IMG/VR virus record: IMGVR_UViG_3300008216_000022
Coordinates: 1-40,782 of that record
DNA from: a virus
Length of the DNA: 40,782 nucleotides
Direction: 5' to 3' (one strand)
A model generated the notes under the pieces. That model was given only the letters and a program-made list of their open reading frames with translations. It had not been told where the DNA came from and searched no databases. Shown here piece after piece: positions 260-26,247 of this stretch. Both the position numbers and the translations under genes were made by a program. Numbering within the stretch: position 1 is the stretch's first letter; the number at the start of each line of letters is the position of its first letter.

Positions 260-937
260 ATGGTTGAGTTTGTTATGATATATAAGAGCGGACACGAGAA
301 GGAGTTTGACGATGTACCTTGCTTTGGTAGCTTGAACGAAGAGCACGACTCTTTCGAGGCTGATGAAGGGGAAGAGATACAAGAGATAGTCTATAACCTA
401 GGGCACGAGCTAGAGAACGATGATCTAATAGAGTTGATGAAGACCCATCCAGTATTGTCCAAGCCTGTAAGGTATGTAGATAAGGGGGGGTATATATCTG
501 TGTCTCCTGATTACCCTGCTGACTTAGTTCTAGGGTGTCTTAGCTTTGCCCGTACCTTATTCACTAATAGACACGGTTTCAAGGTACGTGAACTAATCAG
601 GGTAGGGTTAAAGCCCGTGGTGGCAGCCTTCTTGGTGGACAGCACTACCAACAATGGCAAGCGAATGTTCAGGTACATAGAGGAGAGTCTGGTACAGGAC
701 TGGCCACTAAGGGACTTTATAGATTGGCTAGAGAATCCAGTAGATAGGTCTATCGAAGAGATATACTCTACCTCCCTTACGTATACATCTATAAAGACAA
801 GTCTATCCGGTAAGGACTATAACCTGTATGACTACCGTGAATCCAGAGAGGATACACCTAGTCAGGTAATGGAGTTAATAACCTGGGAAAAAGGCAGAGA
901 TTTTATTTACAACACAGAGGGGAAAGAACTATGTTAG
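260..937 (+). CDS. Hypothetical protein in the amidoligase cluster
   Basis: A 225-residue soluble protein that I do not recognise. The N-terminal 60 residues are very acidic (FEADEGEEIQEIV, HELENDD), followed by a mixed alpha/beta middle section (DYPADLVLGCLSFARTLF) and a C-terminal half rich in Tyr, Ser and Thr. No signal peptide, membrane segment or metal motif is evident. It starts at ATG 260, after a GGAG at 247-250 inside the previous gene, and its stop overlaps the start of the phiEco32-type amidoligase by 7 bases. That tight coupling suggests it works with the ligase, as a partner or a substrate-handling protein. This role is inferred only from position. Confidence 0.8.
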   Translation: MVEFVMIYKSGHEKEFDDVPCFGSLNEEHDSFEADEGEEIQEIVYNLGHELENDDLIELMKTHPVLSKPVRYVDKGGYISVSPDYPADLVLGCLSFARTLFTNRHGFKVRELIRVGLKPVVAAFLVDSTTNNGKRMFRYIEESLVQDWPLRDFIDWLENPVDRSIEEIYSTSLTYTSIKTSLSGKDYNLYDYRESREDTPSQVMELITWEKGRDFIYNTEGKELC

Positions 938-1686
938 ATATACCATTAGTAGGGTGCGATCCAGAGGTATTTTTGAAGCGAGGTAATACTATCATCAGCG
1001 CTATCGGGGTTGTAGGGGGAAGTAAAGAGAATCCCTTACAGGTTGAAGATGGTACGTTGCAAGAGGATAACATCCTCGCGGAAATAGGGATAACACCGGC
1101 ATCCGATAAAGAGTCTTTCGTGAATAGAGTATCCAAAGTACTGGGTATACTTATGGAACGTACTTCCTGTAGTATAGACTATTCAAGCAGTCATGTGTTC
1201 ACTAAAGAATGGTTGAGATCACAAGGAGGTAAGGCTCTTACGTTTGGATGCGATAGGGACTACAATGCATATACCGGGATGGTTAACCCTAAGCCATCAG
1301 GTAAGACCCTTATCAGGAGTGCGGGTGGGCATATACACTTAGGTAGGTCTGACATAGACCTGATCAAGCTAGTGAAGACAATGGATCTGTACCTAGCTGT
1401 ACCCTCCATTCTAGCCGATAAGGATACAGACCGTAGGTCTTTGTATGGTAAGGCAGGGTGCTACAGAGAGAAACCATACGGGGTGGAGTATCGCACTCTC
1501 AGTAATTTCTGGTTGAGAAGTAAGGATAAAATGGGGTGGGCCTACGAGCAATCTGTGAGAGCAGTACTAGAACACAAAGATATTGATCTACCAGAGGAAG
1601 GTATGGTACAGGCGTGTATTAACACCAGCAGTGAGTCTCTGGCTTTAGAACTCATAGGCCAGTTCAACTTGGTTGAATGTCCCTAG
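931..1686 (+). CDS. Phage phiEco32-like COOH-NH2 ligase (amidoligase, type 2)
   Basis: A 251-residue protein recognised as the phage phiEco32-like COOH-NH2 ligase type 2 family, a branch of the glutamine synthetase-like amidoligases that form amide bonds between a carboxylate and an amine using ATP. Visible motifs are GCDPEVF (8-14), the acidic VEDGTLQEDN segment (38-47), SAGGHIHLG (130-138), RRSLYGKAGCYREK (168-181) and VEYRTLSNFW (185-194). The conserved acidic, His and Arg residues are those expected to hold ATP and Mg. Length is normal for the family. ATG 931 follows a GAGGGGAAAG ribosome site. It is the first of two unrelated-looking amidoligases within 3 kb, alongside a glutamine amidotransferase and an ATP-grasp enzyme. 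The substrate is unknown. Confidence 0.9.
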   Translation: MLDIPLVGCDPEVFLKRGNTIISAIGVVGGSKENPLQVEDGTLQEDNILAEIGITPASDKESFVNRVSKVLGILMERTSCSIDYSSSHVFTKEWLRSQGGKALTFGCDRDYNAYTGMVNPKPSGKTLIRSAGGHIHLGRSDIDLIKLVKTMDLYLAVPSILADKDTDRRSLYGKAGCYREKPYGVEYRTLSNFWLRSKDKMGWAYEQSVRAVLEHKDIDLPEEGMVQACINTSSESLALELIGQFNLVECP

Positions 1687-1696
1687 GGAGGTAGCT

Positions 1697-1900
1697 ATGG
1701 AGTTTAAAGTAGGGGATAGGGTCAGACTTTGTAAGGATTCTAGGTACGGGGACCACTCAGATACTCAGGGTAAGGTCGTAGATATCGACGCGTTTAGTGC
1801 CAGTTACCGATATAGGGTAAGGTGGCGGGGTAATTATTGGACGTGGTGCTACAGGGGAGAGGATCTAGAGCTTGCTGAGGAGGTGTTGTATGAGATTTAA
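1697..1900 (+). CDS. Small SH3/KOW-like cassette protein, copy 2
   Basis: A 67-residue family member starting MEFKVGDRVRLCKDSRYG. The start at ATG 1697 is chosen over an upstream in-frame ATG (1673) because GGGAGGT at 1685-1691 is ideally spaced and the other copies begin at the same point in the alignment. The middle is shorter than in other copies, and the second strand reads YRVRWRGNYWTWCYRGEDLEL. The protein ends EEVLYEI at 1900, where its last codons contain the ribosome site and ATG of the next gene. Function unknown. Confidence 0.85.
   Translation: MEFKVGDRVRLCKDSRYGDHSDTQGKVVDIDAFSASYRYRVRWRGNYWTWCYRGEDLELAEEVLYEI
1877..1900 (+). promoter_or_regulatory. Overlapping stop/start translational junction
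   Basis: GAGGAGGTG (1877-1885) encodes EEV and provides the Shine-Dalgarno sequence. ATG 1890 starts the next gene and TAA 1898-1900 ends the previous one, an 11-base overlap identical in geometry to those at 31-41, 5702-5712, 5922-5932 and 6329-6339. A ribosome terminating here would sit over the next start, so coupled re-initiation is likely. Confidence 0.75.
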
Positions 1901-2120
1901 GGTAGGTCAGAGGGTGTTTTTTAACCCTTATTACACAGAGGAGATAGTAGGCATAGGCATTACTTGTGGACATAGAGAGATTTACAATGTAATCTATATG
2001 TCACCTGACGCCACTGACGAAGTGAATATTTCAACGGAGGGCGGATTGTCATGGTATGCAAGGGACCTCTACTTGCTTCCAGTAGAGGAAATTTTATTAG
2101 AGATAGGAGAAGATGAATGA
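1890..2120 (+). CDS. Divergent small cassette protein, copy 3
   Basis: A 76-residue divergent member. It keeps the family opening (MRFKVGQRVFF) and ending (RDLYLLPVEEILLEI), but the centre is different: the VRIRKDSxYYG and W-P-x-G segments are replaced by a sequence containing EIVGIGITCGHREIYNVIYMS and a late W-Y-A-R-D-L. It is translated from ATG 1890 inside the previous gene's end. Its own stop (TGA 2118-2120) overlaps the ATG of the following gene at 2117 as ATGA. A diverged paralogue, or a different small barrel placed between the same translational signals, would both fit. Confidence 0.8.
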   Translation: MRFKVGQRVFFNPYYTEEIVGIGITCGHREIYNVIYMSPDATDEVNISTEGGLSWYARDLYLLPVEEILLEIGEDE

Positions 2121-3001
2121 ACAGAGATGATTTTAACATGTACTTGGCAGGTTCTTTCTTTGCTACAAAGGAAGGGGATCTTATATTCATAGAGGAATGT
2201 GACGATGATGACAATGTTCACTGCGTGGTATATGATACGGAGCATGACACCTACTCAATGACCATTGATATAGAGGGGATTGAGGACACACTGGACTTTA
2301 ACGGCTTTGATCTTAAACCCTTCGAGGTGGACGGGCTTGCGTATAGTCCATCCTACTCCTCCATGAGAGGGATTAAGGACGGAGTTAATAACAGGCGCAT
2401 CACACTGGCACCTATGGGTCACACCCGATCCAGGGACTGTTCACGAAAAGATATTGTGAGGATGTATTTTGATCCAATCGGTACAGTAGAGGATGCCTTG
2501 AATGTTATATCTAGCGGACAAAAACGATATTGTTCCATAGGTGACGGTTTTTACTTGGCTCGTCAGGTATCCACCGAAGAGGATAAAGAACCTTTCTGTA
2601 GTGTACGGGTAACGATGACCGATGAAGGGGATCTCCGTGTAGTCTCGGAAGATTTTGATGCCATCCTTTCCAGTTTTAGCCCTTGTAGTCCTCTACCAAG
2701 CGATAGCTCGGTACAACAGCAGAAAGGGTTTACCAGCATCAAGACACTAGGGGAATGGCTAGAGGGTAAGATTGGCTCCCCTCCTGGCACAGTACCTACT
2801 GTAGTGCTCGATCACTACATGGAATGGGCAGAGAGGAACTTAAATGAAACTCCTAGGCTAGAGCTGTCCCGTCATGGGATGCCTTTGTGTGTCCTAGGAG
2901 AGGAGATACCAGAGTTTTTCAAGGGTTTACCTAAACTTAACAATTACATAGAGGCGCTTACAAATGAATTCACATCAGTTGCTATGCGGAATAGAGCTTG
3001 A
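2117..3001 (+). CDS. Hypothetical protein preceding the second amidoligase
   Basis: A 294-residue protein without a recognised domain. The N-terminus contains an acidic strand-rich segment (GDLIFIEECDDDDNVHCVVYD) suggestive of a small beta domain. The middle has paired Cys and Ser-rich stretches (FSPCSPLPSDSS), and the C-terminus is helical (LDHYMEWAERNLNE). No signal peptide or membrane segment is seen. It starts by ATGA overlap with the preceding cassette gene and its last 38 bases overlap the start of the second amidoligase. The arrangement mirrors the 225-residue unknown that precedes the first amidoligase, so each ligase has an uncharacterised gene directly upstream. A partner or substrate role is inference. 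Confidence 0.8.
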   Translation: MNRDDFNMYLAGSFFATKEGDLIFIEECDDDDNVHCVVYDTEHDTYSMTIDIEGIEDTLDFNGFDLKPFEVDGLAYSPSYSSMRGIKDGVNNRRITLAPMGHTRSRDCSRKDIVRMYFDPIGTVEDALNVISSGQKRYCSIGDGFYLARQVSTEEDKEPFCSVRVTMTDEGDLRVVSEDFDAILSSFSPCSPLPSDSSVQQQKGFTSIKTLGEWLEGKIGSPPGTVPTVVLDHYMEWAERNLNETPRLELSRHGMPLCVLGEEIPEFFKGLPKLNNYIEALTNEFTSVAMRNRA

Positions 3002-3731
3002 GACAGAAGGTAACTACATGGTAGGTGTGTCATCCGATTACTGGGATTTCCACGAAGACGGTACGTTACGTGGTCCACACGCTGAGTTTGTTCTCAAAGA
3101 ACCTACTCTTATGGGTGATCTCGACCCTGCCTTTAGAGAGCTAAGTACCTTCATACATTCTTTCCCTGTCAATGTAACCCCTAGGTGTGGGTTACATGTA
3201 CATATAGATGTTAGGGACTTATCTCATAAGGAGATATATAGTGCCTGCCTTGCATACACTTTACTAGAGAAGTTGTTGTATAAGATATCGGGAGATAGAT
3301 CTAATAATAAGTTCTGTGTACCCGTGCTTAGTTCAGCATACGTAAGGGATGCAATAAGCAGGCTGTATATCGACAGAGACAGCGGTACCAGGGAGAAGCT
3401 GTATTCAGGACTCAACCTAGCCTCTATCCGGGAACTAGGTAGCATTGAGTTCAGGATGCACTCAGGTACGTTGGATACAGAGGAGATACACGACTGGGTG
3501 TACATACTACACACCTTGGTACTACGTGCCTCTGCCTTACCTCCTGAAGATATCATACAGGCAGGACAAACGTACCGTAGCTTCTATTCGTTTGTGGTTG
3601 ATACACTCAGGCTTACAGCCCGTCCCTCTCGTCTGGCAGCCGAACTGGATAAACTGAGAGATTGTTGGAAAACATACGAAACAAAGATAACTGAGCAGAT
3701 ACACTTCCGTGCTCTACAACTAGACAAGTAA
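2964..3731 (+). CDS. Amidoligase_2-family COOH-NH2 ligase
   Basis: A 255-residue amidoligase of the second, more widespread family. Motifs in order are GIELETEG (9-16), HEDGTLRGPHAEFVL (30-44), RCGLHVHIDV (74-83) and IEFRMHSGT (161-169). These are the glutamine synthetase-like ATP/Mg-binding signatures: paired glutamates in the first strand, H-x-H in the central strand and E-F-R at the end of the core. The enzyme is expected to ligate a carboxyl to an amine via an acyl-phosphate. ATG 2964 lies within the end of the upstream gene. Only 10 bases separate its stop from the amidotransferase, suggesting the two act together, possibly with ammonia or an amino acid as the amine donor. The substrate cannot be read from the sequence. 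Confidence 0.9.
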   Translation: MNSHQLLCGIELETEGNYMVGVSSDYWDFHEDGTLRGPHAEFVLKEPTLMGDLDPAFRELSTFIHSFPVNVTPRCGLHVHIDVRDLSHKEIYSACLAYTLLEKLLYKISGDRSNNKFCVPVLSSAYVRDAISRLYIDRDSGTREKLYSGLNLASIRELGSIEFRMHSGTLDTEEIHDWVYILHTLVLRASALPPEDIIQAGQTYRSFYSFVVDTLRLTARPSRLAAELDKLRDCWKTYETKITEQIHFRALQLDK

Positions 3732-3741
3732 GGAAATAATT

Positions 3742-4959
3742 ATGTGTGGATTAATAGGTGTGGTAGGAGATATCACTAAGCTAGACATCTCATTCTTTAG
3801 GCAGGCTCTGGCAGCTAATGTTGTACGTGGGTGGGACAGTACAGGTGTGTCAGCCTTCACAGATGAGTCAACGAACAAGCACCATAACTCTGATTATGTG
3901 TTGTGGTCACACAAAGAGGCTATAACAGGGTCAGAGGCAGCATGTGACAAGGAATTTAATGCAGTGTTTAATGATCTTGGGAACATTGCCATCATGGGAC
4001 ATAACCGTGCAGCTACAGTAGGTGATGTTACACGAGAGAATGCTCACCCTTTTTCTCACGGTAATCTATCCCTCATGCACAACGGTACATTGACCGATAC
4101 CAGCGTACTGGATGGTGATTTTGATACTGACAGTGAACAGATAGCCTATACATTATCTCTCGCTACAGACAAGAAGGCTGTGTTAGAGAAGATAGAGGGG
4201 GCCTTTGCCCTGTCATGGATAGACGTAGGTAATAATACCTTTAACCTAGCCCGTAATGATGAGCGATCCCTGTATATAACCTACAGCAATAAAGGAGACA
4301 CCCTTTACTATGCATCCGAGGCAAAGATGTTGGAGTGGCTACTATCCAGAAACAAGATATTGCATGGAGATATAATCCCTCTCCCGGTAGGGGAGTGGTT
4401 GACTGTAAAACTATCTAACTGTTCACGGGGCGTAGCCTTAGATACTGAGGTAACGAAGTTCACCCCCTTTGTATTACCGTCATGGACAAGCAAGTACTAC
4501 CAACAAGCATACGGTGGGGGTTCATACTTCGGTACAGAGGCAGGAGAGACCGTTAACTTTCAGATTGAGAGTATCCTTAAAAGCCACCACAGTGAGGGTG
4601 CGTACAACATAACAGGTTACTCGATGGAATCTAATGCAGATGTTAAGGGGTATGCTTTCTCTGAGGAGTCTATTAAGGGCTTCTCTATAGGGGATAATGT
4701 CTCTGGTGTCAGCGGGTGTACCAGTTACTACAATCAAACCAGTGGATATGAAACAATTGTCCTTAAGAAGAATGAACTATCTATAGATGGGACAGCAAGT
4801 AATACTATCATAGATACGCACACTTGCTCATACTGTAACACCAAAGTGGCAAATGTTACAAACATTGCAAACTTAGACGTTTGTGATAACTGTATCGACG
4901 AAGTGAAGGACATACTGAATACAGATACACGGGGATCAAACCTAAACACAAGGGGATAA
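3742..4959 (+). CDS. Class II glutamine amidotransferase with C-terminal zinc ribbon
   Basis: A 405-residue protein with an N-terminal Ntn-type glutaminase domain. Cys2 is exposed after Met removal (MCGLIGVVGD), followed by RGWDSTG (29-35), GHNRAATVG (86-94), HNGT (113-116) and DTDSEQ (128-133). These match the Arg, Asn-Gly and Asp positions that bind glutamine in GlmS/PurF-type enzymes, so glutaminase activity is likely. The synthetase domains of PurF, GlmS or AsnB are absent. Instead there is an uncharacterised 200-residue extension ending in a zinc-ribbon-like CSYC...CDNC (Cys362, 365, 381, 384). Flanked by an amidoligase and an ATP-grasp ligase with 10- and 3-base gaps, it may supply ammonia or transfer an amide in a shared pathway. 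Confidence 0.9.
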   Translation: MCGLIGVVGDITKLDISFFRQALAANVVRGWDSTGVSAFTDESTNKHHNSDYVLWSHKEAITGSEAACDKEFNAVFNDLGNIAIMGHNRAATVGDVTRENAHPFSHGNLSLMHNGTLTDTSVLDGDFDTDSEQIAYTLSLATDKKAVLEKIEGAFALSWIDVGNNTFNLARNDERSLYITYSNKGDTLYYASEAKMLEWLLSRNKILHGDIIPLPVGEWLTVKLSNCSRGVALDTEVTKFTPFVLPSWTSKYYQQAYGGGSYFGTEAGETVNFQIESILKSHHSEGAYNITGYSMESNADVKGYAFSEESIKGFSIGDNVSGVSGCTSYYNQTSGYETIVLKKNELSIDGTASNTIIDTHTCSYCNTKVANVTNIANLDVCDNCIDEVKDILNTDTRGSNLNTRG

Positions 4960-4962
4960 CTA

Positions 4963-5712
4963 ATGATATTCATAGCACCGTACCGTATGGCATTCCCGAC
5001 TGCCCGAAGAATACGTGAAGTCTTACCTAACTCACGTATAATCAAGTATCGCAATTCAAGATTTAACTGGAACCGTAGTAGAGGGACCGTATTGAATTGG
5101 GGTAGGTCTGACATACCGCCTACAAACAGACAAGTTATTAATCAACCCCACGCCATCAGTGTGGCAGCTAACAAAAGACGGTTCCTAGCCGGTTGCGAGG
5201 AGAATAATATCCCAGCACCTAGGTTATTGTCCGAGGATCAATGTATAAGCACCTTAGAGGAAGGGAAGGTACTACTAATACGTACACCCTCTTCCTTCGG
5301 AGGGAAGGGTATAAAGGTAGTAAGAGGCACAGAGGAGTTTCATGGTATACCACTTAATCACATGGCAGTACAATTCTTCCCTAAAGAGACTGAGTTTAGA
5401 GCACATGTATGGGGGGATGAGATAATTTTCCTAACGCAGAAGCGGAGTAAACGGGGGGTTGAGAGGGAGAGAGACCAGAAGCTAGTGTGGAGTCATTCTA
5501 ACGGCTATGTACATTGCAGACAAGATGTAGAGTGCCCTGATGGACTAGAGGAGCTAGCTATAAAATCAGTAAAGATGTGTGGTCTACACTTCGGTGCGGT
5601 AGATATTATGTTGAATAAGGATGGGGTACTAAGGGTACTGGAGGTTAATACAGCGCCTGGACTTACAGGTCAGGTATTGGATAAGTATCTGGAGGTTATC
5701 CGTGAAATTTAA
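4963..5712 (+). CDS. RimK-like ATP-grasp ligase
   Basis: A 249-residue ATP-grasp enzyme. It carries LNWGRSDIP (44-52), a probable ATP-binding Lys71 segment (NKRRFL), the glycine loop FGGKGIKVV (112-120), FRAHVW (145-150), GAVDIML (211-217) and the Mg-binding LEVNTAPGLTG (226-236). These place it near RimK-type ligases that add amino acids to carboxyl groups through an acyl-phosphate. It is slightly shorter than typical RimK proteins. It begins 3 bases after the amidotransferase stop. Its final codons (YLEVIREI) mimic the C-terminal peptide of the cassette family and carry the ribosome site and GTG start of the next gene. With two amidoligases and a glutaminase close by, assembly of an amide-linked peptide or a modified cell-wall component is plausible but unproven. 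Confidence 0.9.
   Translation: MIFIAPYRMAFPTARRIREVLPNSRIIKYRNSRFNWNRSRGTVLNWGRSDIPPTNRQVINQPHAISVAANKRRFLAGCEENNIPAPRLLSEDQCISTLEEGKVLLIRTPSSFGGKGIKVVRGTEEFHGIPLNHMAVQFFPKETEFRAHVWGDEIIFLTQKRSKRGVERERDQKLVWSHSNGYVHCRQDVECPDGLEELAIKSVKMCGLHFGAVDIMLNKDGVLRVLEVNTAPGLTGQVLDKYLEVIREI
5689..5712 (+). promoter_or_regulatory. Cassette-type stop/start junction at the end of the ATP-grasp gene
   Basis: CTGGAGGTT (5689-5697) is followed by GTG 5702 (start of the next cassette gene) and TAA 5710-5712 (stop of the ATP-grasp gene). This is the same 11-base overlap as between cassette genes, although the upstream gene is an unrelated enzyme. Either the enzyme's C-terminus was replaced by cassette sequence or it converged on the same junction. 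Confidence 0.65.
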
Positions 5713-5932
5713 TAAAGGTGATATAGTAAGAGTACGTAAGGACTCTCGGTATTATGGAAGGGTTGCCCCACCAGATATTCCAGGCGAGGTCGTAGGTATC
5801 TCCCTGAGTGACCCTATTGTTTACGTAAAGTGGCCACCACAACGTCAACGTGTTGGTGACTTCATGCCTTCTTTCTATGAGGTAACGGAAATGGATATAG
5901 AACTAAATGAGGAGGTGTTGTATGAAGTTTAA
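5702..5932 (+). CDS. Small SH3/KOW-like cassette protein, copy 4
   Basis: A 76-residue member starting with GTG (MKFNKGDIVRVRKDSRYYG). The core reads GEVVGISLSDPIVYVKWPPQRQRVG and then departs from the family (DFMPSFYEVTEMDIEL) before the common ending NEEVLYEV. The N-x-Y-R element is missing or moved, making this one of the more altered copies. It is the first of four tandem copies (5702-6568), each overlapping the next. Function unknown; a nucleic-acid- or protein-binding small barrel is the likeliest fold. Confidence 0.85.
   Translation: MKFNKGDIVRVRKDSRYYGRVAPPDIPGEVVGISLSDPIVYVKWPPQRQRVGDFMPSFYEVTEMDIELNEEVLYEV
5909..5932 (+). promoter_or_regulatory. Overlapping stop/start translational junction
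   Basis: GAGGAGGTG (5909-5917) is the Shine-Dalgarno sequence and the EEV codons. ATG 5922 starts copy 5 and TAA 5930-5932 ends copy 4, again an 11-base overlap. Confidence 0.75.
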
Positions 5933-6137
5933 AATAGGGGATGAGGTTAAGATTAGAAAAGACTTACCTATGATAGGATCAGCCTATAAACCTAGAGATG
6001 TTATAGGTAGGGTAATAGATATCCTAGGTTATGAATACCCTGTAAGGGTAACGTGGCCTAATGGTCGGAGTCGTAATTATAAGGAGTACGAGCTAGAACT
6101 TACTGAGGAGACACTATATGAAATTTCGAGTCGGTGA
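5922..6137 (+). CDS. Small SH3/KOW-like cassette protein, copy 5
   Basis: A 71-residue member starting MKFKIGDEVKIRKDL at ATG 5922, chosen because it is the family start and is correctly spaced from GAGGAGGTG. The core is KPRDVIGRVIDILGYEYPV followed by VTWPNGRSRNYKEYELEL. The end reads TEETLYEISSR: here the usual ATTTAA is ATTTCG, so translation runs nine bases further to TGA 6135-6137 and the overlap with copy 6 is 20 bases instead of 11. Function unknown. Confidence 0.87.
   Translation: MKFKIGDEVKIRKDLPMIGSAYKPRDVIGRVIDILGYEYPVRVTWPNGRSRNYKEYELELTEETLYEISSR
6105..6137 (+). promoter_or_regulatory. Cassette junction with shifted stop codon
   Basis: GAGGAGACA (6105-6113) supplies a weaker ribosome site (GAGGAG) for ATG 6118. 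Because TTTAA has become TTTCG, the upstream gene stops only at 6137. The overlap is 20 bases, the same length as at the cassette/DNA polymerase junction (10615-10634). Confidence 0.65.
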
Positions 6138-6339
6138 TAAGGTTAGGATCAGGAAAGATTCTAAGTACTATGTAGCCGGTCGTAGTAACCCTAAAGACAC
6201 TGCCGGCATTATTGAAGAGATAGGACCTTGCCGTAACTGGCAGAGCCACATGATCACCGTAAAGTGGCCTGATGAATGGAGTAATAATTATAGGGTGTAT
6301 GACCTAGAATTAGATGAGGAGGTGTTGTATGAAATTTAG
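6118..6339 (+). CDS. Small SH3/KOW-like cassette protein, copy 6
   Basis: A 73-residue canonical member, close to the family consensus. It begins MKFRVGDKVRIRKDSKYY, continues AGRSNPKDTAGIIEEIG, and ends MITVKWPDEWSNNYRVYDLEL and EEVLYEI. The order G-D-x-V-R, N-P-x-D-T-x-G, V-x-W-P, N-x-Y-R, Y-D-L is the clearest resemblance to the MIB/HERC2-type small barrel. It starts at ATG 6118 within copy 5, and its last codons hold the start of copy 7. No catalytic residues are apparent, so a binding role is likelier than an enzymatic one. Confidence 0.88.
   Translation: MKFRVGDKVRIRKDSKYYVAGRSNPKDTAGIIEEIGPCRNWQSHMITVKWPDEWSNNYRVYDLELDEEVLYEI
6316..6339 (+). promoter_or_regulatory. Overlapping stop/start translational junction
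   Basis: GAGGAGGTG (6316-6324), ATG 6329 and TAG 6337-6339 reproduce the 11-base overlap seen at four other junctions. Confidence 0.75.
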
Positions 6340-6568
6340 AGTGGGGGATAAGGTCAGGGTTATACATCCAAAGGACAGTGAGGAGGCGGAGTTACGGGAA
6401 CACCAAGCCCCTTACTGGATAAGAAGGATGGGAAGCATGAAAGATGTATATAGTATAAGTAGAATATCGTATGCTGGTTATATACAGGCGGGTGGTGATT
6501 ATTACTTCCATCCCGACTGGCTGAAGTTAAGCGAAGAAATATTGTGGGAGATACAAGATACTGAATGA
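6329..6568 (+). CDS. Divergent small cassette protein, copy 7
   Basis: A 79-residue member that keeps only the ends of the family: MKFRVGDKVRVIHPKDSEE at the start and WLKLSEEILWEI at the end. The interior (HQAPYWIRRMGSMKDVYSIS, AGGDYYFHPDW) lacks the DSxYYG and N-x-Y-R segments and looks like a different small barrel placed between the same flanks. It is the last of the four tandem copies and is followed by a 55-base gap before the reductase, the largest gap in this stretch. Function unknown. Confidence 0.8.
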   Translation: MKFRVGDKVRVIHPKDSEEAELREHQAPYWIRRMGSMKDVYSISRISYAGYIQAGGDYYFHPDWLKLSEEILWEIQDTE

Positions 6569-6623: not shown

Positions 6624-8573
6624 ATGCTAGACACAGATTATCAAAAATTTATACACAAGACACGTTATGCACGATGGATAGATTCTGAGAAACGAAGGGA
6701 GGAGTGGGAAGATACTGTAGATAGGTATGTTGACTTCATATCCGCCCAGGCAACGTCACACGGGTACCAGTTAAATGAAACCGTGTACCACGAAATACGG
6801 GACAGTATATTAAACCTAGAGGTCATGCCCTCTATGCGGGCACTGATGACTGCCGGTACTGCATTAAGCAGGGATAACATTGCAGGATATAACTGTGCCT
6901 TCATCGATATAGATACACCTCGTGCTTTTGATGAGGTAGTGTATGTATTAATGTGTGGTACAGGAGTAGGCTTCAGTGTAGAGGCCAGAAACATAGATAA
7001 ATTACCAATCATATCGGAGGAGATGTATGAAACAGACACAACAATCAGAGTCGTGGACTCAAAGATTGGATGGGCTAAGGCATACCGTGAATTATTGTCA
7101 CTACTCTATGCAGGCCAGATTCCCAGATGGGACACCAGTAAAATCAGACCGGCAGGAGATAGGCTCCGCACTTTTGGTGGCAGAGCGAGCGGTCCAGAAC
7201 CTCTTGAAGACCTGTTCAGGTTTACAATTGAAGTATTCACAAACGCAAGAGGTCGAAGACTAAGACCCATAGAAGTACATGATATTGTCTGTAAGATTGC
7301 AGACATTGTTGTAGTGGGTGGGGTAAGACGCAGTGCCTTGATAAGTCTCAGTGACCTGAATGACAGTGACATGAGGGCAAGTAAGTTTGGTGCGTGGTGG
7401 GAATCTAACGGTCAGCGTAGACTGGCAAACAACTCTGCCATATATCGTTGCACCCCTTCTATGTCTAACTTCCTATCTGAGTGGAGGATGTTATACGAGT
7501 CAAAGTCTGGTGAGAGAGGTATATTCAACAGAGAGGCTTGCGTCAATAAGATAAAAGAGGTAGGGCGGAGAGATCCTGACTACCACTGGGGTACAAACCC
7601 TTGCTCTGAGATTATCCTCCGGTCTTGTCAGTTATGTAACCTAACCGAGGTTGTCATACGAGCTGATGATACCGCTGAGTCACTTAAGAGGAAAACACGT
7701 GTAGCTACAATCATAGGTACTATACAATCTACCCTGACGGATTTTCGTTATGTAAGGAATATATGGAAGAGAAACTGTGAGGAAGAGAGGCTGCTAGGTG
7801 TTAGTTTAACAGGTATAATGGACCATCCTGTGATGAATGGAACTGCTATAAGCAGCCAGTTCTATGATTTCATAGGTCCAGAGGATGAGCCTACCTACAT
7901 CACCTTAGCGGAAGTCTTACAGGATCTACGGGAGATAGCGGTAGACACAAACAAACTATGGGCTGAGAGGTTTAGTATAAACCAATCAACAGCAATCACC
8001 TGTGTCAAACCCAGCGGTACAGTCTCTAAGCTAGTTAACACCAGTAGTGGTATACATGGGAGGTTTGCCCCTCACTATATACAACGCATCAGGAATGATA
8101 TCAAAGACCCTATTACACAGTTCTTTGTTGATCAAGGTATGCCTTATGAAGTAGATGTAATGAACAAAGATAATCTGGTATTTAGTTTTCCCATCAAGTC
8201 TCCTGATACCTGTAGGTTATCAAGAGATATGTCCGCTATAGAGCAGTTGAATATGTGGTTATACTACCAAGACTATTGGTGTGAACATAAGCCTAGTTGT
8301 ACGATCTACTATAAAGAAGAGGAGTTCCTAGCGGTAGGTGATTGGATATACAAGAACTTCGACAAAATCTCCGGGGTTAGTTTTATACCTTTCGATGATC
8401 ATACGTATCAACAGGCCCCTTGGGAAAAGATAGACGAAGAGGAGTATAATAAGATGGTGTCAGAGATGCCAGCAATTGAGTGGGATAGACTACGTGAGTA
8501 TGAAGAGGATGACAATACCACCAGCTCACAAGAACTGGCATGTACAGGAGGTAGTTGTGAAATCAATGTTTAA
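6624..8573 (+). CDS. nrdJ: Class II (adenosylcobalamin-dependent) ribonucleotide reductase
   Basis: A 649-residue monomeric-type reductase that makes deoxyribonucleotides for phage DNA. The active-site pattern fits the B12-dependent RTPR-like class: Cys91 in GYNCAFI, NPCSEI (325-330) with Cys327 and Glu329, and Cys338 eleven residues after Cys327, the same spacing as Cys408/Cys419 in the Lactobacillus enzyme. The C-terminal redox pair is Cys640-x4-Cys645 (CTGGSC). GGVRRSALI (232-240), LLGVSLTGI (390-398) and KPSGTVS (462-468) are further family signatures. No R2/NrdB gene is present, as expected for class II. ATG 6624 follows GAGAGGGA. The last codons contain the GGAGGT and GTG of the next cassette gene, so the two are translationally coupled. 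It implies a cobalamin-using or cobalamin-supplied host. Confidence 0.92.
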   Translation: MLDTDYQKFIHKTRYARWIDSEKRREEWEDTVDRYVDFISAQATSHGYQLNETVYHEIRDSILNLEVMPSMRALMTAGTALSRDNIAGYNCAFIDIDTPRAFDEVVYVLMCGTGVGFSVEARNIDKLPIISEEMYETDTTIRVVDSKIGWAKAYRELLSLLYAGQIPRWDTSKIRPAGDRLRTFGGRASGPEPLEDLFRFTIEVFTNARGRRLRPIEVHDIVCKIADIVVVGGVRRSALISLSDLNDSDMRASKFGAWWESNGQRRLANNSAIYRCTPSMSNFLSEWRMLYESKSGERGIFNREACVNKIKEVGRRDPDYHWGTNPCSEIILRSCQLCNLTEVVIRADDTAESLKRKTRVATIIGTIQSTLTDFRYVRNIWKRNCEEERLLGVSLTGIMDHPVMNGTAISSQFYDFIGPEDEPTYITLAEVLQDLREIAVDTNKLWAERFSINQSTAITCVKPSGTVSKLVNTSSGIHGRFAPHYIQRIRNDIKDPITQFFVDQGMPYEVDVMNKDNLVFSFPIKSPDTCRLSRDMSAIEQLNMWLYYQDYWCEHKPSCTIYYKEEEFLAVGDWIYKNFDKISGVSFIPFDDHTYQQAPWEKIDEEEYNKMVSEMPAIEWDRLREYEEDDNTTSSQELACTGGSCEINV

Positions 8574-8775
8574 CATAGGAGATGAGGTTAAGATTAGAAA
8601 AGATTCTGTGTACTATAGAGATGGCCCCGGTAATCCTACAGACACTGTAGGTAAGGTCGTAGGTCACTACACCCAGAATATATATATTGCTTACGTAAGG
8701 TGGCCTGATGGCCGGGGTAATAGTTATAGGGAGTGTGATCTAGAGAAACCAGAGAAGACACTATTGGAGATATAG
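8557..8775 (+). CDS. Small SH3/KOW-like cassette protein, copy 8
   Basis: A 72-residue canonical copy (MKSMFNIGDEVKIRKDS, NPTDTVGKVV, YVRWPDGRGNSYRECDLE, KTLLEI). The start is ambiguous: GTG 8557 lies 4 bases after GGAGGT (8547-8552), whereas ATG 8566 would have a 13-base spacing and no other ribosome site, so GTG is preferred. This gives a 17-base overlap with the reductase gene. It is separated by one base from the primase-helicase GTG. The ending matches copy 1 (KILLEI) rather than EEVLYEI. Function unknown. Confidence 0.82.
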   Translation: MKSMFNIGDEVKIRKDSVYYRDGPGNPTDTVGKVVGHYTQNIYIAYVRWPDGRGNSYRECDLEKPEKTLLEI

Positions 8776-10415: not shown

Positions 10416-10634
10416 ATGTTTAGAATAGGAGATAAGGTTAGGATCAGAAAAGATTCTGATTACTATGGGAATGGTCGTAGTAACCCTAAAGGTACTGTAG
10501 GTGTGATCCATCTGGACCAAAGGGATCGCGAGTACTCTTACAGCGTAGACTGGCTCAATGGTTATCTAAACAGTTATAGGGAGTATGATCTAGAGCTTGC
10601 TGAGGAGATATTGTATGAAACAGGCTGTCTTTGA
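10416..10634 (+). CDS. Small SH3/KOW-like cassette protein, copy 9
   Basis: A 72-residue canonical member starting MFRIGDKVRIRKDSDYYG at ATG 10416, preceded by GAGGAG (10403-10408) inside the end of the primase gene. The core is GRSNPKGTVGVIHLD and YSVDWLNGYLNSYREYDLEL. It ends AEEILYETGCL: the family tail runs on into sequence that is also the first codons of DNA polymerase, so the stop lies 20 bases into that gene. It is the last copy in the window. Function unknown, but it is wedged between the primase-helicase and polymerase genes. Confidence 0.87.
   Translation: MFRIGDKVRIRKDSDYYGNGRSNPKGTVGVIHLDQRDREYSYSVDWLNGYLNSYREYDLELAEEILYETGCL
10602..10634 (+). promoter_or_regulatory. Cassette end providing ribosome site and start for DNA polymerase
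   Basis: GAGGAGATA (10602-10610) and ATG 10615 lie within the last codons of the cassette gene. This is the same layout as cassette-to-cassette junctions, but the downstream gene is DNA polymerase. The upstream stop TGA is at 10632-10634, giving a 20-base overlap. Confidence 0.7.
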
Positions 10635-13327: not shown

Positions 13328-14014
13328 ATGAGTGATGTGATATCCGTGTTAGATCACGGCCATGTCAGGTTAGTAGAACATATGGGTAGTGATTTATCTA
13401 TTGCGCGTAATGCGAGGATATCATATGATGCTGAGTGGAGAGCGGGAGAAGATAAAGGAAGTGATACTAGACTCATACGGTACTTATATCGTAATGGCCA
13501 TACCAGCCCCTTTGAGTCAGTAGTATTTACTTTCGATGTCAAGGCACCGCTCTTCGTAGTACGTCAGTGGCAGAGACACCGAACACAATCTTATAACGAG
13601 ATCAGTGCTAGGTATAGAGAACTACCCGATGAAATGTATATTCCCGATAAGGAGGTGATCACAAAACAATCCGAAGATAACAAACAGATGAGGTCAGAAG
13701 AGTTAGTAGACAATCCAGAAGTAATTAGGGAACTCATTGAGTCTACAAACAAGGAGTCTTTTGCAGCCTATAAGGAGCTAATCAGGCAGAATTGCCCTAG
13801 AGAGTTAGCCAGATCTGTGTTACCTGTAGGTATTTATAGTCATATGTTCACCACCGTTAACCTGAATAACCTGTTTAAGTTTATTGCAGAACGGACACAT
13901 GAACATGCTCAGTACGAGATTCGGGTATACGCTCATGCGTTACTCGAACTCATTGAACCTATCGTTCCTGTAGCGGTAGCAGCATTTAAGGAGAAGATGA
14001 ATGAAAACTGTTAA
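13328..14014 (+). CDS. thyX: Flavin-dependent thymidylate synthase ThyX
   Basis: A 228-residue ThyX, which methylates dUMP to dTMP using methylene-tetrahydrofolate and FADH2. The family signature RHRTQSYNEISARY (83-96) is intact: the RHR-x2-S core and the S-A-R-Y that follow bind FAD and dUMP. Upstream, TRLIRYLYRNGHTSPFE (47-63) carries the His-x3-PFE motif, and a C-terminal PRELARSVLP segment is also typical. Length is normal. It belongs to the nucleotide-supply group with the reductase, kinase and pyrophosphohydrolase. The last bases overlap the start of a small membrane protein gene. Confidence 0.95.
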   Translation: MSDVISVLDHGHVRLVEHMGSDLSIARNARISYDAEWRAGEDKGSDTRLIRYLYRNGHTSPFESVVFTFDVKAPLFVVRQWQRHRTQSYNEISARYRELPDEMYIPDKEVITKQSEDNKQMRSEELVDNPEVIRELIESTNKESFAAYKELIRQNCPRELARSVLPVGIYSHMFTTVNLNNLFKFIAERTHEHAQYEIRVYAHALLELIEPIVPVAVAAFKEKMNENC

Positions 14015-14192: not shown

Positions 14193-14710
14193 TGAACATA
14201 TTAGTTACAGGGCATGGTCGTCACGGTAAAGATACCTTCTGTGAGGTGTTAAGGTATCATGGCCTTACCTTCACCAGCTCATCCCTTCAAGCAGCAAAGA
14301 ATTATATATTCCCTTTATGGGGTAAGTACCGGTATGATACAATAGAGGAGTGTTATAATGATAGACATACAGGGGACAATAGGGCCATATGGTATAAACT
14401 TATACAGGAGTATAATACACCAGATAAATCCAGACTAGCCAGAGACATATTATATAGGAATGATGTGTACTGTGGAATGAGATGTAAAGAGGAGTTATCT
14501 GCCTGCGATAGGATTTACCTATTTGATATAAAGATATGGGTCGATGCTTCAGACAGGCTCCCCCCGGAGTCTAGTGACAGCATGACAATAACCAAGGACA
14601 TGTGTGATATTATTATAGAGAACAACGGCAGCCTGGATGAGTTCCTGAGCAAAATAGCTTATCTGGCAAATATTCTTGCATGTGCAAACAAAACGGAGGT
14701 TTTAATATGA
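14192..14710 (+). CDS. P-loop (deoxynucleoside monophosphate) kinase-like protein
   Basis: A 172-residue protein beginning MNILVTGHGRHGKDTF, a Walker A loop (GHGRHGKDT, residues 7-15) typical of phage dNMP kinase-like and related small P-loop kinases. Downstream are an Arg/Asp-rich lid-like section (NDRHTGDNRAIW, DKSRLARDIL) and a strand CDRIYLFDIKIWVDAS that could hold the Walker B carboxylate. It would phosphorylate dNMPs to feed the polymerase, consistent with thyX and MazG neighbours. Substrate specificity is not determinable. It starts at GTG 14192, sharing one base with the previous stop. Confidence 0.7.
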   Translation: MNILVTGHGRHGKDTFCEVLRYHGLTFTSSSLQAAKNYIFPLWGKYRYDTIEECYNDRHTGDNRAIWYKLIQEYNTPDKSRLARDILYRNDVYCGMRCKEELSACDRIYLFDIKIWVDASDRLPPESSDSMTITKDMCDIIIENNGSLDEFLSKIAYLANILACANKTEVLI

Positions 14711-15036
14711 AACTAGATGAATACCAAGCTGAAGCAGGTGAGTTTGCGCTATACCATAACCATGACAGTGGAGAGGATGAGATAGCGATGTATCCTTTCC
14801 TTGCCCTATCAGAAGAGGTAGGTGAGGTTAATGGTAAGATAGCTAAGTCCCTACGAGGAGATAAGGAACTAGAAACCTATGATATAGCGAAAGAGTTAGG
14901 GGATGTACTCTGGAATCTATCAGAGTGTGCTAGACAGATAGGATGGAGGATGTCTGATATAGCTCAACTCAACATCAATAAACTTGATGCACGTCAGAGA
15001 GCAAACACCATAAAGGGTGACGGTGATGACCGTTAA
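14707..15036 (+). CDS. MazG-like nucleotide pyrophosphohydrolase
   Basis: A 109-residue all-helical protein with the MazG metal-binding pattern: LALSEEVGEV (E-E-x-x-E) in the first helix pair and AKELGDVLWNL (E-x-x-D) in the next. It should hydrolyse (d)NTPs or related nucleotides to monophosphate and pyrophosphate. ATG 14707 is preferred over an upstream in-frame start at 14680 because ACGGAGG lies at a good distance and the protein then begins MKLDEYQAEAG, as usual for the family. In phages such enzymes may adjust nucleotide pools or alarmone levels; which applies here is unknown. Confidence 0.85.
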   Translation: MKLDEYQAEAGEFALYHNHDSGEDEIAMYPFLALSEEVGEVNGKIAKSLRGDKELETYDIAKELGDVLWNLSECARQIGWRMSDIAQLNINKLDARQRANTIKGDGDDR

Positions 15037-18564: not shown

Positions 18565-18809
18565 TTCTTCTTAGGGCGACCGCCCTTCCCCCTATTATCT
18601 GCTCTGTTTGATGACTTACTTCTGACTCTGAGGTTCTTCCCGCCCTTACTTGTATTCTTGTTCTTATGGTCTACATCCTTCCCATCTCCCTTCTTTACCT
18701 TCCCTTTCTTCTCCATCTCTTTCCGGGATTTATTCCTCTCTGCCCTTCGTTTCTTCTGCTTAGGCTTTTTGTGGTAAGTTTCATACTCACGCTTATAATC
18801 TCTAGGCAT
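18561..18809 (-). CDS. Small basic HNH-like protein
   Basis: An 82-residue, extremely Lys/Arg-rich protein. The N-terminal half (MPRDYKREYETYHKKPKQKK) is a pattern found in a small phage protein family. The C-terminal half, GKDVDHKNKN...GKNLRVRSKSSNR, has the spacing of a minimal HNH nuclease (the D-H, N-L-R and S-x-x-N-R elements) but lacks the zinc-binding cysteines of larger HNH enzymes. It could nick or simply bind DNA. It follows the lysozyme-domain internal virion protein directly (shared base at 18809) and overlaps the next gene by 4 bases. Confidence 0.65.
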   Translation of the reverse strand: MPRDYKREYETYHKKPKQKKRRAERNKSRKEMEKKGKVKKGDGKDVDHKNKNTSKGGKNLRVRSKSSNRADNRGKGGRPKKK

Positions 18810-21073
18810 TACTCTACTCCTATATTTGCTTTGTCTACGGTTGTTTTGAAATCGCTACTAATCGGTCTAGATGTACGGTAGGAGAATATTACCTGCCCAT
18901 CCTCTCCTATGTAGTTAACCTCTACCTTATCTCCCTCTGTACTCATCGCTACCTCGGTAATGACATTATCAGGGAATACTTTATTCCACATAAGTGCCCT
19001 ACGTTTTGCCAGCCCTGGGACAGTGACCTTTTGTCCAGAAGGGGTAGAAGATCCTGCCGTATCCAAGGTCTGACGCATAACTTCCTCTACGTCACCTCCC
19101 TCAGTTATAGCCTTTTTCAATCCTCTACCTACACCCATATTATATTTAAGATCAAGCACTGCTGACTTAACCTCAGTAGGTAGACCCTCCCAGCTATCTT
19201 CCCCTACAGAGGACTTAACCTCTTCCAGATGAGCTTCGACTATCCTGGTCGCATACCCCCTATCAGACTCTCCTTCCTCCTTCTCGATCCCCTTAGTGAA
19301 TGTCACTCCGTAAGGTAATACCTTTGCTCCACTCTCCAGGGCAGAGTGAGCCTCTACACCTTCTCTACCGCCGAGGTCATCCATAAATCCCTCAATAAAT
19401 GAATGGGGCTTATTGGCCCCTTGGGGCTTTGGGGGCTGGGGATCTCCTTCTTTTGTCGGTATTGAAAATAGACTGGTAACGTATTCATCAGCACTCTCAT
19501 ACTTACCTTCCCATAACTCTGGATTCTTCCTTGCAACTTTAAGTGCGTCTAGGACAGAGGTATATACCTTAGACCCGACAGATCCACCATCTTGATCTTT
19601 AACTACAGTCCTCATGGTCTGAGGTACACCCTCTCTGATAGATGACATACCAAACACTTCCTGTTCGATACTAATAGAATTAAGAAGAGAGTTATTCTCA
19701 AATAGATAACCCATCTTCCTCTTCTCAATACCCTTCTTCATGAACCTCTCTATGTCTTGAGGTGTGTAGTCCCCTCTCTCTACCGCCGCTCTCCACTTAT
19801 CTGTAGCGAAGTACACAAAGGCTGCTGGGGTTTCACTAATGATCATGGATAGCTTATCCTGCGTATTCTTAAATATATTAGGGTCTTGTACAAAAGGTAC
19901 TACAGAGTTTTTCTCAAACTCAGTAGGATTCTCATTCTCTGGGTTAAAGAAATTGACTGCTGCGGACCCTGCATTCTGAGATAGACCCCCTTGTGGGAAC
20001 ATGCCCTGGTAGGCTTGCTTGAACAACGGGTTGTTCTCATAGAAGGATTTTACTTGATTACTATTAAGGGCATCAAAGATCTTCGACATCATTTGCTCAC
20101 CATACACTTGCTTCACCGCTATGATGTTCCCAAGGTTCTTCATATTCTCAACATTCATTCTTGAAGACATGACCTCTGCTCGATTTTTTAATGTAGTCTG
20201 TAACTCATTATCCCCTATAACAGCAGCTACATTTTCCTTGAGCGTCCTCATAGAATTATTAAAGTCCTCCATCTGTTTCGGGGTGGGAAGTTTCCCTGCT
20301 TTCTCGAAGTTAGCTAAGAACTGCTTCCTTGCGTTGTTAATATCCTGATCCATCTGGAACTTCAATACCCTGGACTGGTCTTGGTTCAGTGCTCCCTCCC
20401 CTGATTCAGTGAGTGAAGTTACTATACGGGACATGAGATTCTCCTGCATATTCACAGTCGTAGCCGAGGTTAGGTAGGCCACACTACCCTCATCCAGTTT
20501 ATGGGTCTGTTCTATCTGATTTATTCGATGATCCCTATTATTCCTGGCTGTGATAGATCCAAGGGCTTGATCAAAACCCATATTATGGGCCATGGCAAAG
20601 GACCATACCTCTTCCTCGAAAGCAGATCGAGCTTTACTGTAAGGACTCTCTGCATCCTTGAAGAATCCACCACCATCTATGGCAGAATTAAAGAAACCAC
20701 TGAAGGCATCCTTAATCTCACGTGCAAACATACCCCCAGAATCTGACAAGGACTTCTTAAGGAGAGCCTTGGCTCTGGTATTAGCTACCGTCCCGGATAT
20801 GCTTCCTGCCTTTCTCGCGGCTGCTATCTTTCCTAGATTGTCTAAGTTCCCTAGCTCTTTTACAAGTTCCTCTTGGCCAGCATCTTCCTCTGTACCTATC
20901 TCATCAATGGACTGTGCTCCACCTGTAAGCTCACCTACAGCGGCACCAGCAGCTAACTTATAGCCTGCCCCTCCAAGCCCCTCTATAGCACTAGCTGCGC
21001 TGGTATCGACAACTCCTCCCTGTACAGAAGGTTCTATCCTTGGTCGGTCTATCTCACGTGTAAATTTTGGCAT
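18809..21073 (-). CDS. Internal virion protein with C-terminal lysozyme-like domain
   Basis: A 754-residue virion protein. The first 550 residues are helical, Gly/Ala-rich at the start (GLGGAGYKLAAGAAVGELTGG) and lack enzyme motifs, as expected for an internal (ejection) protein. The C-terminal part (about 565-700) resembles a GH24-type phage lysozyme: ESGAKVLPYGVTFTKGIE near its start, LDLKYNMGVGRGLKKAI in the middle, and VPGLAKRRALMWNKVF at the end, matching the N-x-G and GL-x-x-R-R positions of that family. It probably opens peptidoglycan during DNA entry. It is encoded directly after the 1421-residue internal protein (TAATG overlap). The exact catalytic acid is not certain. Confidence 0.8.
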   Translation of the reverse strand: MPKFTREIDRPRIEPSVQGGVVDTSAASAIEGLGGAGYKLAAGAAVGELTGGAQSIDEIGTEEDAGQEELVKELGNLDNLGKIAAARKAGSISGTVANTRAKALLKKSLSDSGGMFAREIKDAFSGFFNSAIDGGGFFKDAESPYSKARSAFEEEVWSFAMAHNMGFDQALGSITARNNRDHRINQIEQTHKLDEGSVAYLTSATTVNMQENLMSRIVTSLTESGEGALNQDQSRVLKFQMDQDINNARKQFLANFEKAGKLPTPKQMEDFNNSMRTLKENVAAVIGDNELQTTLKNRAEVMSSRMNVENMKNLGNIIAVKQVYGEQMMSKIFDALNSNQVKSFYENNPLFKQAYQGMFPQGGLSQNAGSAAVNFFNPENENPTEFEKNSVVPFVQDPNIFKNTQDKLSMIISETPAAFVYFATDKWRAAVERGDYTPQDIERFMKKGIEKRKMGYLFENNSLLNSISIEQEVFGMSSIREGVPQTMRTVVKDQDGGSVGSKVYTSVLDALKVARKNPELWEGKYESADEYVTSLFSIPTKEGDPQPPKPQGANKPHSFIEGFMDDLGGREGVEAHSALESGAKVLPYGVTFTKGIEKEEGESDRGYATRIVEAHLEEVKSSVGEDSWEGLPTEVKSAVLDLKYNMGVGRGLKKAITEGGDVEEVMRQTLDTAGSSTPSGQKVTVPGLAKRRALMWNKVFPDNVITEVAMSTEGDKVEVNYIGEDGQVIFSYRTSRPISSDFKTTVDKANIGVE

Positions 21074-25800: not shown

Positions 25801-26247
25801 TTATATCTCCTTCATGTATACGTTTTCAACGTGTCTGAAACCAGCACGTTCTACCAATGAGTCATGGGAGAACTCTGTTTTCAATGTAATAAATATCTGT
25901 GATGTACCCGTTGCCTTGAAGTACCTCTCAGCGGTCAGATATAGTTCATCAACAATCCCACACCCTCTATATTCAGGGAGGATGTAAGTTATCTCTGTGG
26001 TGGCTTTTAGGACCCTGGTATGAGTACAGGGAGCTACGGTATATACTACAAATCCTATTACCTCACCCTCTTCCTTGTAGACAAAGATCTTGAGCATGTC
26101 TGCTCTCTCTAGCTGAGCATAAGAGTCGAAGTTTATACATACGTTGTGTGTATCCCTTCTCCCATCTACCTCGTCCCAGTATGCATTTAGTAAAGGCATA
26201 CATTCTCTCTTCATGGAAGAAACACTTCCTATACTTATCTTACCCAT
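25801..26247 (-). CDS. GNAT-family N-acetyltransferase
   Basis: A 148-residue acetyltransferase fold. Strands 4 and 5 with the acetyl-CoA loop are recognisable: IFVYKEEGEVIGFVVYTV, then EITYILPEYRGCGIVDELYL (motif A, with R-G-x-G-I), and the late FYxxx-like section SLVERAGFRHVENVYMKEI. It overlaps the tail tube B gene by 8 bases and ends one base before the gp14-like gene, so it is embedded in the virion operon. The acetylated target may be a virion or host protein. A conserved acetyltransferase in this position is known from some podoviruses, but no role is established here. Confidence 0.85.
   Translation of the reverse strand: MGKISIGSVSSMKRECMPLLNAYWDEVDGRRDTHNVCINFDSYAQLERADMLKIFVYKEEGEVIGFVVYTVAPCTHTRVLKATTEITYILPEYRGCGIVDELYLTAERYFKATGTSQIFITLKTEFSHDSLVERAGFRHVENVYMKEI

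Follow-up and report, generated by a model that had tools for sequence, protein, structure and literature searches.

Several phages, among them phiRIO-1, PSA-HP1, phiEco32, LUZ24, PaP3, tf, PA11 and CW02, carry a set of genes already known as the phage "peptidoglycan modification cassette". Iyer 2009 and Hardies 2013 are reported to predict that this cassette modifies peptidoglycan, and Duhaime 2017 (PMC5498523) likewise predicts a peptidoglycan modification cassette. A role in peptidoglycan modification and superinfection, which corresponds to the wall modification among the outputs of the original prediction, is already published, as a prediction. In HP1, transcription of the cassette starts immediately when the phage infects. 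No product, substrate, mutant phenotype or biochemistry of the cassette was found in the literature, in agreement with the earlier statement that no product is established. The product has been guessed at since 2009, although hundreds of sequenced phages that infect Pseudomonas, Escherichia, Vibrio, Aeromonas or marine bacteria carry the module, and one of them expresses it among its earliest genes.

The DNA analyzed here (the window) is a 40,782-nucleotide virus record, IMGVR_UViG_3300008216_000022, of a marine-type phage, and its copy of the cassette is a complete set of the four enzymes. ORF checks, Pfam and PHROGs confirmed the predicted pair of amidoligases, glutaminase and ATP-grasp ligase as four intact ORFs between positions 931 and 5712, and the proposed kinship with phiEco32-type phages holds. 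The extent originally given to the cluster, 931 to 5712, was right for the enzymes and too short for the module, as it missed two further conserved members, designated UP and MID. Judged by the conservation of these two genes, the module begins at 260 rather than 931. Its features are as follows.

260..937, plus strand: UP, a short protein from a phage-specific family (iterated HMM, E 6.6e-7)
931..1686, plus strand: COOH-NH2 ligase type 2, an amidoligase of the GS/GCS superfamily (PF14395, phrog_3815)
1697..1900, plus strand: small SH3/KOW-like protein, from a set of about nine related genes of the window
1890..2120, plus strand: small SH3/KOW-like protein, divergent copy
2117..3001, plus strand: MID, conserved unnamed module protein (phrog_11055/phrog_4877 family)
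2964..3731, plus strand: Amidoligase_2, second GS/GCS-type ligase (PF12224, phrog_7469)
3742..4959, plus strand: class II (Ntn) glutamine amidotransferase domain with a phage-specific C-terminal extension (PF13522, phrog_4736)
4963..5712, plus strand: RimK-like ATP-grasp ligase (phrog_2599, RimK PF08443)
5702..6568, plus strand: four tandem small SH3/KOW-like genes (5702-5932, 5922-6137, 6118-6339 and 6329-6568) of uncertain module membership, in the GGCT slot of LUZ24-like modules

The stop of UP overlaps the start of the COOH-NH2 ligase gene by 7 bp, and the MID and Amidoligase_2 genes overlap by 38 bp. The full set, UP-COOH-MID-AMD-GAT-GRASP, spanning 260 to 5712 in the window, may constitute a phage-specific accessory operon.

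The COOH-NH2 ligase matches PF14395 (E 5.9e-13) and phrog_3815 (E 1e-74), and Amidoligase_2 matches PF12224 (E 1e-11) and phrog_7469 (E 9.8e-43). The former keeps the catalytic residues E12, E51, H134, H136, R179, K181, E186 and R188, within a Glu/His/Arg pattern that is invariant in the family, and the latter keeps the invariant residues E11, E13, E15, E41, H78, H80, E162 and R164. Sequence searches found no solved relatives of either amidoligase, and profile comparison detected no common origin of the two. The glutaminase matches PF13522 GATase_6 (E 3.4e-14) and phrog_4736 (E 5.2e-58), and its family profile finds PurF and GlmS. It keeps the catalytic residues C2, R89, T92, N114, G115 and D130, which we take to be the counterparts of GlmS Cys1, Arg73, Thr76, Asn98, Gly99 and Asp123; Cys2 and the glutamine-site residues are invariant. 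The 3742-4959 protein has neither a GlmS isomerase nor a PurF domain and is a stand-alone class II glutaminase, with a CxxC...CxxC motif in its C-terminal extension. The ATP-grasp ligase matches phrog_2599 (E 9e-44) and RimK PF08443 (23.2 bits; cut-off, 21), and its metal- and ATP-binding residues (K71, E144, R146, K160, D214, E227 and N229) are invariant. The module proteins are only about 25 to 48% identical to their relatives, yet frames and active-site residues are intact. All four enzymes keep their catalytic signatures, as predicted.

UP and MID are more divergent. The UP of the window was matched at E 6.6e-7 by an iterated HMM grown from L008-type seeds, at a stage when the model did not yet include the window. 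OM43-type seeds alone missed it (E ~5), and the Zobellviridae-type set linked both. An invariant Cys and an invariant Arg characterize the UP family, which has no significant fold match in the PDB; in the viral fold library, its matches with a phage name (E ≤1e-3) are all from module-bearing phages. MID was identified by hhalign with a profile from which the window had been left out, at a probability of 85 and P 6.6e-6 across 124 columns; a control protein gave P 0.1. Its slot, just upstream of Amidoligase_2, is kept in 77 of 99 loci. The family is modeled as two small beta barrels (pLDDT 92), for which no significant PDB match was found. Across the 99 loci the genes are not always in the same order, and MID is missing from the ~100 kb phages, so the core may not need every member.

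The roughly nine small SH3/KOW-like genes of the window are interspersed in the module, and relatives sit inside the modules of CW02 and two other loci (L055 and L070). The 1697-1900 protein also matches DUF1918, below the cut-off. In LUZ24 and UFV-P2, GGCT occupies the slot of the 5702-6568 genes. The tandem proteins share an acidic tail, EEVLYEI, and were considered as LysW-like carrier proteins. This was rejected, since the tail codons form the Shine-Dalgarno sequence and start of the next gene and their conservation has a cause at the DNA level.

The four enzymes were found in 316, 338, 308 and 315 phage records, and the counts for each genus are almost the same, so their clustering is not due to chance, in line with the original view that they form one pathway. 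These counts and the synteny of the 99 loci show that podoviruses inherit the module as one block. It is nearly absent from bacterial genomes: the genome collection gave only 7 matches, of which 5 are complete or partial modules, and 3 of those 5 adjoin a phage primase or polymerase. Chromosomal relatives are nearly lacking as a guide to the substrate, and the remaining two matches (L106 and L107) are too distant to inform. Among the matches listed, the named hosts of complete modules are all diderm. In relatives, the module adjoins primase-helicase and polymerase genes and lies among genes of nucleotide and DNA metabolism.

A gamma-glutamyl-removing enzyme accompanies the module in all 64 other complete five-gene loci (gamma-glutamyl cyclotransferase, GGCT, in 31; a gamma-glutamyl hydrolase of the peptidase C26 type in 26; both in 7), and the presence of one or the other was confirmed in 11 named phages. 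At least three switches between GGCT and C26 are seen on the COOH-ligase tree; their complementarity is phylogenetically clumped, and an independent-pairs test has no power here. Of 50,697 phage records, no more than 60 have homologues of C26, mostly module carriers among the matches listed, and the nearest solved relatives are probable glutamine amidotransferases (3fij, 7d4r, 7d50 and 7d53). The window is the only complete five-gene locus surveyed without GGCT or C26: neither was detectable in its 40.8 kb, a linear fragment that ends 260 bp upstream of UP, and C26 in relatives lies on the UP side, where the record ends. The presence of a remover in every other complete locus points to gamma-glutamyl amides that would be made and later cleaved.

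Our leading reading, a tentative one, is that the 260-5712 operon makes amide (isopeptide) bonds at an early stage of infection through addition and removal of gamma-glutamyl groups, with a peptidoglycan precursor as a slightly preferred acceptor. By family chemistry, the glutaminase would release ammonia from glutamine. The two GS/GCS-type ligases would spend ATP on activating glutamate, or a similar acid, at its gamma-carboxyl and would couple it to amines, and the RimK-like enzyme would add a further amino acid. By analogy, GGCT or C26 might then strip a gamma-glutamyl group that had served for activation or protection. More speculatively, if the acceptor were the cytoplasmic stem-peptide precursor, the new wall could be altered such that competing phages are excluded or lysis is prepared. 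The precursor peptide leads only narrowly as a guess, since proteins and free metabolites are nearly as likely, and peptidoglycan is not singled out by any finding here. Of the outputs in the original prediction, the wall modification and the protein tag gain no support from these results, which do not speak against them either. It is possible, if doubtful, that the same chemistry instead serves a virus-only pathway whose novel product is either attached to a protein or free as a metabolite; UP and MID would then be new folds, dedicated as enzymes or scaffolds.

Among specific acceptors other than peptidoglycan, a protein is unlikely, though the best placed. The ATP-grasp ligase and amidoligases would build a glutamyl or amide side chain on MID, UP or a host protein such as the ribosome or RNA polymerase, for early host takeover. 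The nearest solved ATP-grasp relatives are of the RimK type, whose target for glutamylation is ribosomal protein S6. Aravind's group suggested that ATP-grasp ligases of phages modify proteins, and UP and MID are conserved partners with no significant PDB fold match. The immediate expression of the HP1 cassette is also consistent with it, as are the sigma factors encoded by several carriers, which imply use of the host RNA polymerase. However, MID has no conserved free C-terminal tail, and simple glutamylation would need nothing beyond one RimK-like gene, so that the four additional enzymes suggest a more elaborate product. A free gamma-glutamyl peptide, thiol or amide for redox, nitrogen or signaling purposes is less probable. 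A GCS-type ligase that works alongside an ATP-grasp enzyme would mirror GshA/GshB in glutathione synthesis, and GGCT is an enzyme of glutathione-type degradation. Both GGCT and C26 recycle gamma-glutamyl compounds, and the module is early, among genes of nucleotide and DNA metabolism. Nevertheless, the hosts largely make glutathione already, and a pure nitrogen or redox role needs no two ligase families without detectable sequence kinship.

Hypermodification of DNA, with an amino-acid-like group on a base shielding it from restriction, was among the originally suggested outputs and is now very improbable. Virion DNA of tf, which has all four enzymes, is cut by RsaI, HpaI, EcoRV, SmaI and HaeIII and read by Taq and Klenow; native nanopore sequencing of Rembedalsseter, with a complete module, gave no modification motif against an amplified control; and of 16 enzymes used on U17 DNA, 11 cut it. 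A genome-wide adduct is disfavoured by these published data in LUZ24 relatives, for which a DNA-base adduct was rejected as the main reading. The proximity to replication genes would fit a DNA role, and the striking restriction-modification resistance in vivo that is described for module-bearing Gordonclarkvirinae, which have no known modification pathway, keeps it barely open, although their dCTP deaminase and nucleotidyltransferase could account for that resistance. The least probable reading weighed is a recently acquired cargo island with no function in the window phage. The window terminase is closest to those of Zobellviridae, and among the nearest relatives by terminase the module is patchy (absent from GX1, 61%, and ICP2, 60%; present in T5S1, 59%); the lack of a detectable remover also fits such an island. 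Yet frames and active sites that stay intact in proteins only about 25 to 48% identical to their relatives indicate long purifying selection. With DNA modification unlikely in LUZ24 relatives, and with two unnamed partners and a remover added to the membership, the search is narrowed to a gamma-glutamyl conjugate.

The suggested add-then-remove logic has parallels in bacteria. PuuA (GS fold) adds a gamma-glutamyl group to putrescine and PuuD (C26) removes it; in butirosin synthesis, BtrJ (ATP-grasp) adds the group for protection and BtrG (GGCT-fold) removes it. The GGCT-or-C26 rule would match these systems as an analogy of logic only. The phage ATP-grasp ligase resembles the RimK alpha-L-glutamate ligases (7qyr, 7qys and 5zct are the solved structures nearest to its family profile, E ~3e-7 to 6e-7) and has conserved metal and ATP residues; unlike RimK, it has about 250 amino acids and a divergent N-terminal part. 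With the published cassette, from phiRIO-1 to CW02, the window shares the gamma-glutamyl amidoligase, second amidoligase, glutamine amidotransferase and ATP-grasp ligase, likewise beside genes for replication; RIO-1 has a protein with the UP fold, and LUZ24 has MID. The window copy differs in that neither GGCT nor C26 is detectable on its contig and in having a short UP, a long MID and the interspersed small SH3/KOW-like genes, although CW02 of the Zobellviridae has related small genes within its module. Zobellviridae O4, CVT22, CW02 and T5S1-k141_444551 carry C26 and the order GAT-COOH-MID-AMD-GRASP, unlike the window, whose order COOH-MID-AMD-GAT-GRASP is that of LUZ24.

The four enzymes of the original prediction lie at exactly the coordinates claimed, with curated Pfam cut-offs passed or strong PHROG matches, and their catalytic signatures are kept, the active-site residues being invariant columns in alignments with distant relatives. 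The four-enzyme set therefore stands, but the limits drawn around it do not, since two unnamed proteins (UP and MID) also belong to the module:

260-937, UP, 225 aa, second unnamed family
931-1686, COOH-NH2 ligase (COOH)
2117-3001, MID, 294 aa, divergent family member between the two ligases
2964-3731, Amidoligase_2 (AMD)
3742-4959, class II glutaminase (GAT)
4963-5712, RimK-like ATP-grasp (GRASP)

The MID family (phrog_11055/4877) lies directly upstream of Amidoligase_2 in 77 of 99 surveyed loci, and window MID matches a family profile built without it (P 6.6e-6 over 124 columns; control protein, P 0.1). The UP family, with an invariant cysteine and arginine, occupies the upstream position in 58 loci; window UP matches a model not yet containing it (E 6.6e-7). 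UP matches in a viral model library (E<=1e-3) that bear a phage name all come from module-carrying phages (CVT22, CW02, RIO-1, GAP52, 4_4572, and LAh_8). AlphaFold predicts both families with good confidence (UP, pLDDT 82, pTM 0.85; MID, pLDDT 92, pTM 0.84), and neither model had a significant match among solved structures. Aeromonas phage APT65 (L004) has two UP paralogues (2128-2922 and 5126-5971), and Cronobacter GAP52 and Aeromonas LAh_8 have two UP-fold proteins apiece in the viral library.

The module genes are inherited as a block. COOH, AMD, GAT, and GRASP were found by tblastn in 316, 338, 308, and 315 of 50,697 phage records, respectively, and per-genus numbers are almost equal (Pseudomonas, 121/119/119/121; Escherichia, 93/92/93/92; Vibrio, 22/21/22/22). 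The amidoligase total is higher partly because actinophages (e.g., Arthrobacter) match the AMD family only. Gene order is COOH-MID-AMD-GAT-GRASP or GAT-COOH-MID-AMD-GRASP. A second module type, without MID, is found in ~100 kb phages (loci L010-L018 and L076-L080; GAT, 630-700 aa; amidoligase, ~500 aa), usually with both gamma-glutamyl cyclotransferase (GGCT) and peptidase C26 gamma-glutamyl hydrolase (C26); Cellulophaga phage phi14:2 has a COOH ligase of this kind. The module is nearly restricted to phages: one scan of a one-genome-per-species collection gave seven loci, five with complete or partial modules, of which three adjoin a phage primase or polymerase and two come from stretches 4.9 and 13.9 kb long.

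The linear, 40,782-base IMG/VR record is probably a fragment, and the phage looks like a podovirus, with a terminase 59-61% identical to those of Zobellviridae. The module is dispensable: it is missing from the nearest relatives by terminase, GX1 and ICP2, and present in T5S1. In Vibrio phage ICP2 (L108, 33357-36230), CobT/CobS-like genes upstream of primase occupy the corresponding place. Early and replication genes fill the left half (plus strand) and structural genes the right half (minus strand). A nucleotide metabolism set directly follows the module:

6624-8573, ribonucleotide reductase (phrog_367)
13328-14014, ThyX thymidylate synthase
14680-15036, MazG

Within the virion gene block is a GNAT acetyltransferase (25801-26247), whose slot is occupied in T5S1-k141_444551 by acyltransferase ORF33. 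A virion protein (18809-21073) has a phage-lysozyme-like C-terminal domain (Pfam score at cut-off), and no separate endolysin was recognised in the window. About nine small SH3/KOW-like genes, tandem or single, lie between larger genes:

31-255; 1697-1900; 1890-2120, small SH3/KOW-like
5702-5932; 5922-6137; 6118-6339; 6329-6568, small SH3/KOW-like
8557-8775; 10416-10634, small SH3/KOW-like

They carry the motif M[KR]F[KR]VGD.VRIRKDS and share a conserved tail, (E)EE[VIL]LYEI, which overlaps both the Shine-Dalgarno sequence of the following gene and its start codon (GAGGAGGTG-TTGT-ATG). Relatives occur in the modules of CW02 and two further loci (L055 and L070).

GGCT (60 of 99 loci) and C26 (50 of 99) are the commonest non-core neighbours, ahead of primase (49) and polymerase (46). 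Among 65 loci with COOH, MID, AMD, GAT, and GRASP, 31 have GGCT only, 26 C26 only, seven both, and one, the window, neither (locus L008 was assigned from its annotation, confirmed by a separate check). This GGCT-or-C26 rule holds in LUZ24, O4, CW02, APT65, NJ01, Slicky01, phiM6, CVT22, Rembedalsseter, T5S1, and ZRK32. GGCT and C26 are distributed in clumps on the tree, with at least three switches, and an independent-pairs test was without power. Few phages have a C26 homologue (60 records), and module carriers make up most of the matches listed. GGCT and C26 are unrelated, and both cleave gamma-glutamyl amides; a gamma-glutamyl-removing step therefore seems part of the module pathway. In T5S1 and L101, C26 is found on the upstream side, where the window has just 260 bp of sequence beyond UP; truncation may therefore explain why the window departs from the rule.

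Alongside the observed gene content, conservation, and co-inheritance of the module, its enzyme families suggest a pathway in which GAT would yield ammonia, GS/GCS-type ligases would use ATP to form gamma-glutamyl (or similar) amides, GRASP, which among solved structures is closest to glutamate ligases, would lengthen the product, and GGCT or C26 would take off the gamma-glutamyl group. Our guess for the acceptor is peptidoglycan precursors, as published, which is compatible with early expression of the module in HP1 and with diderm hosts among the matches listed; a protein acceptor or a free metabolite as product is nearly as likely. A DNA-base adduct had also been proposed, and the remarkable restriction resistance of Gordonclarkvirinae, reported in the BASEL paper with no known pathway behind it, meant that modification of phage DNA by the module deserved a test. 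However, published data show that RsaI, HpaI, EcoRV, SmaI, and HaeIII cut the DNA of phage tf, which Taq and Klenow read, that native nanopore reads of Rembedalsseter, whose record holds a complete module including GGCT, lack a modification motif relative to an amplified control, and that 11 of 16 enzymes cut U17 DNA. These results make a global base replacement unlikely among phages of the LUZ24 group, with room left for a rare or lineage-specific mark.

Four points were not found in the accessible literature and seem new: the GGCT-or-C26 rule in explicit form, the restriction of the module to phages, the novelty of UP at the fold level, and the combined DNA evidence. Parts of these may already be in Hardies 2013 or Iyer 2009. 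The window module itself is a further member of the seven-gene "peptidoglycan modification cassette" described by Duhaime 2017, following Iyer 2009 and Hardies 2013.
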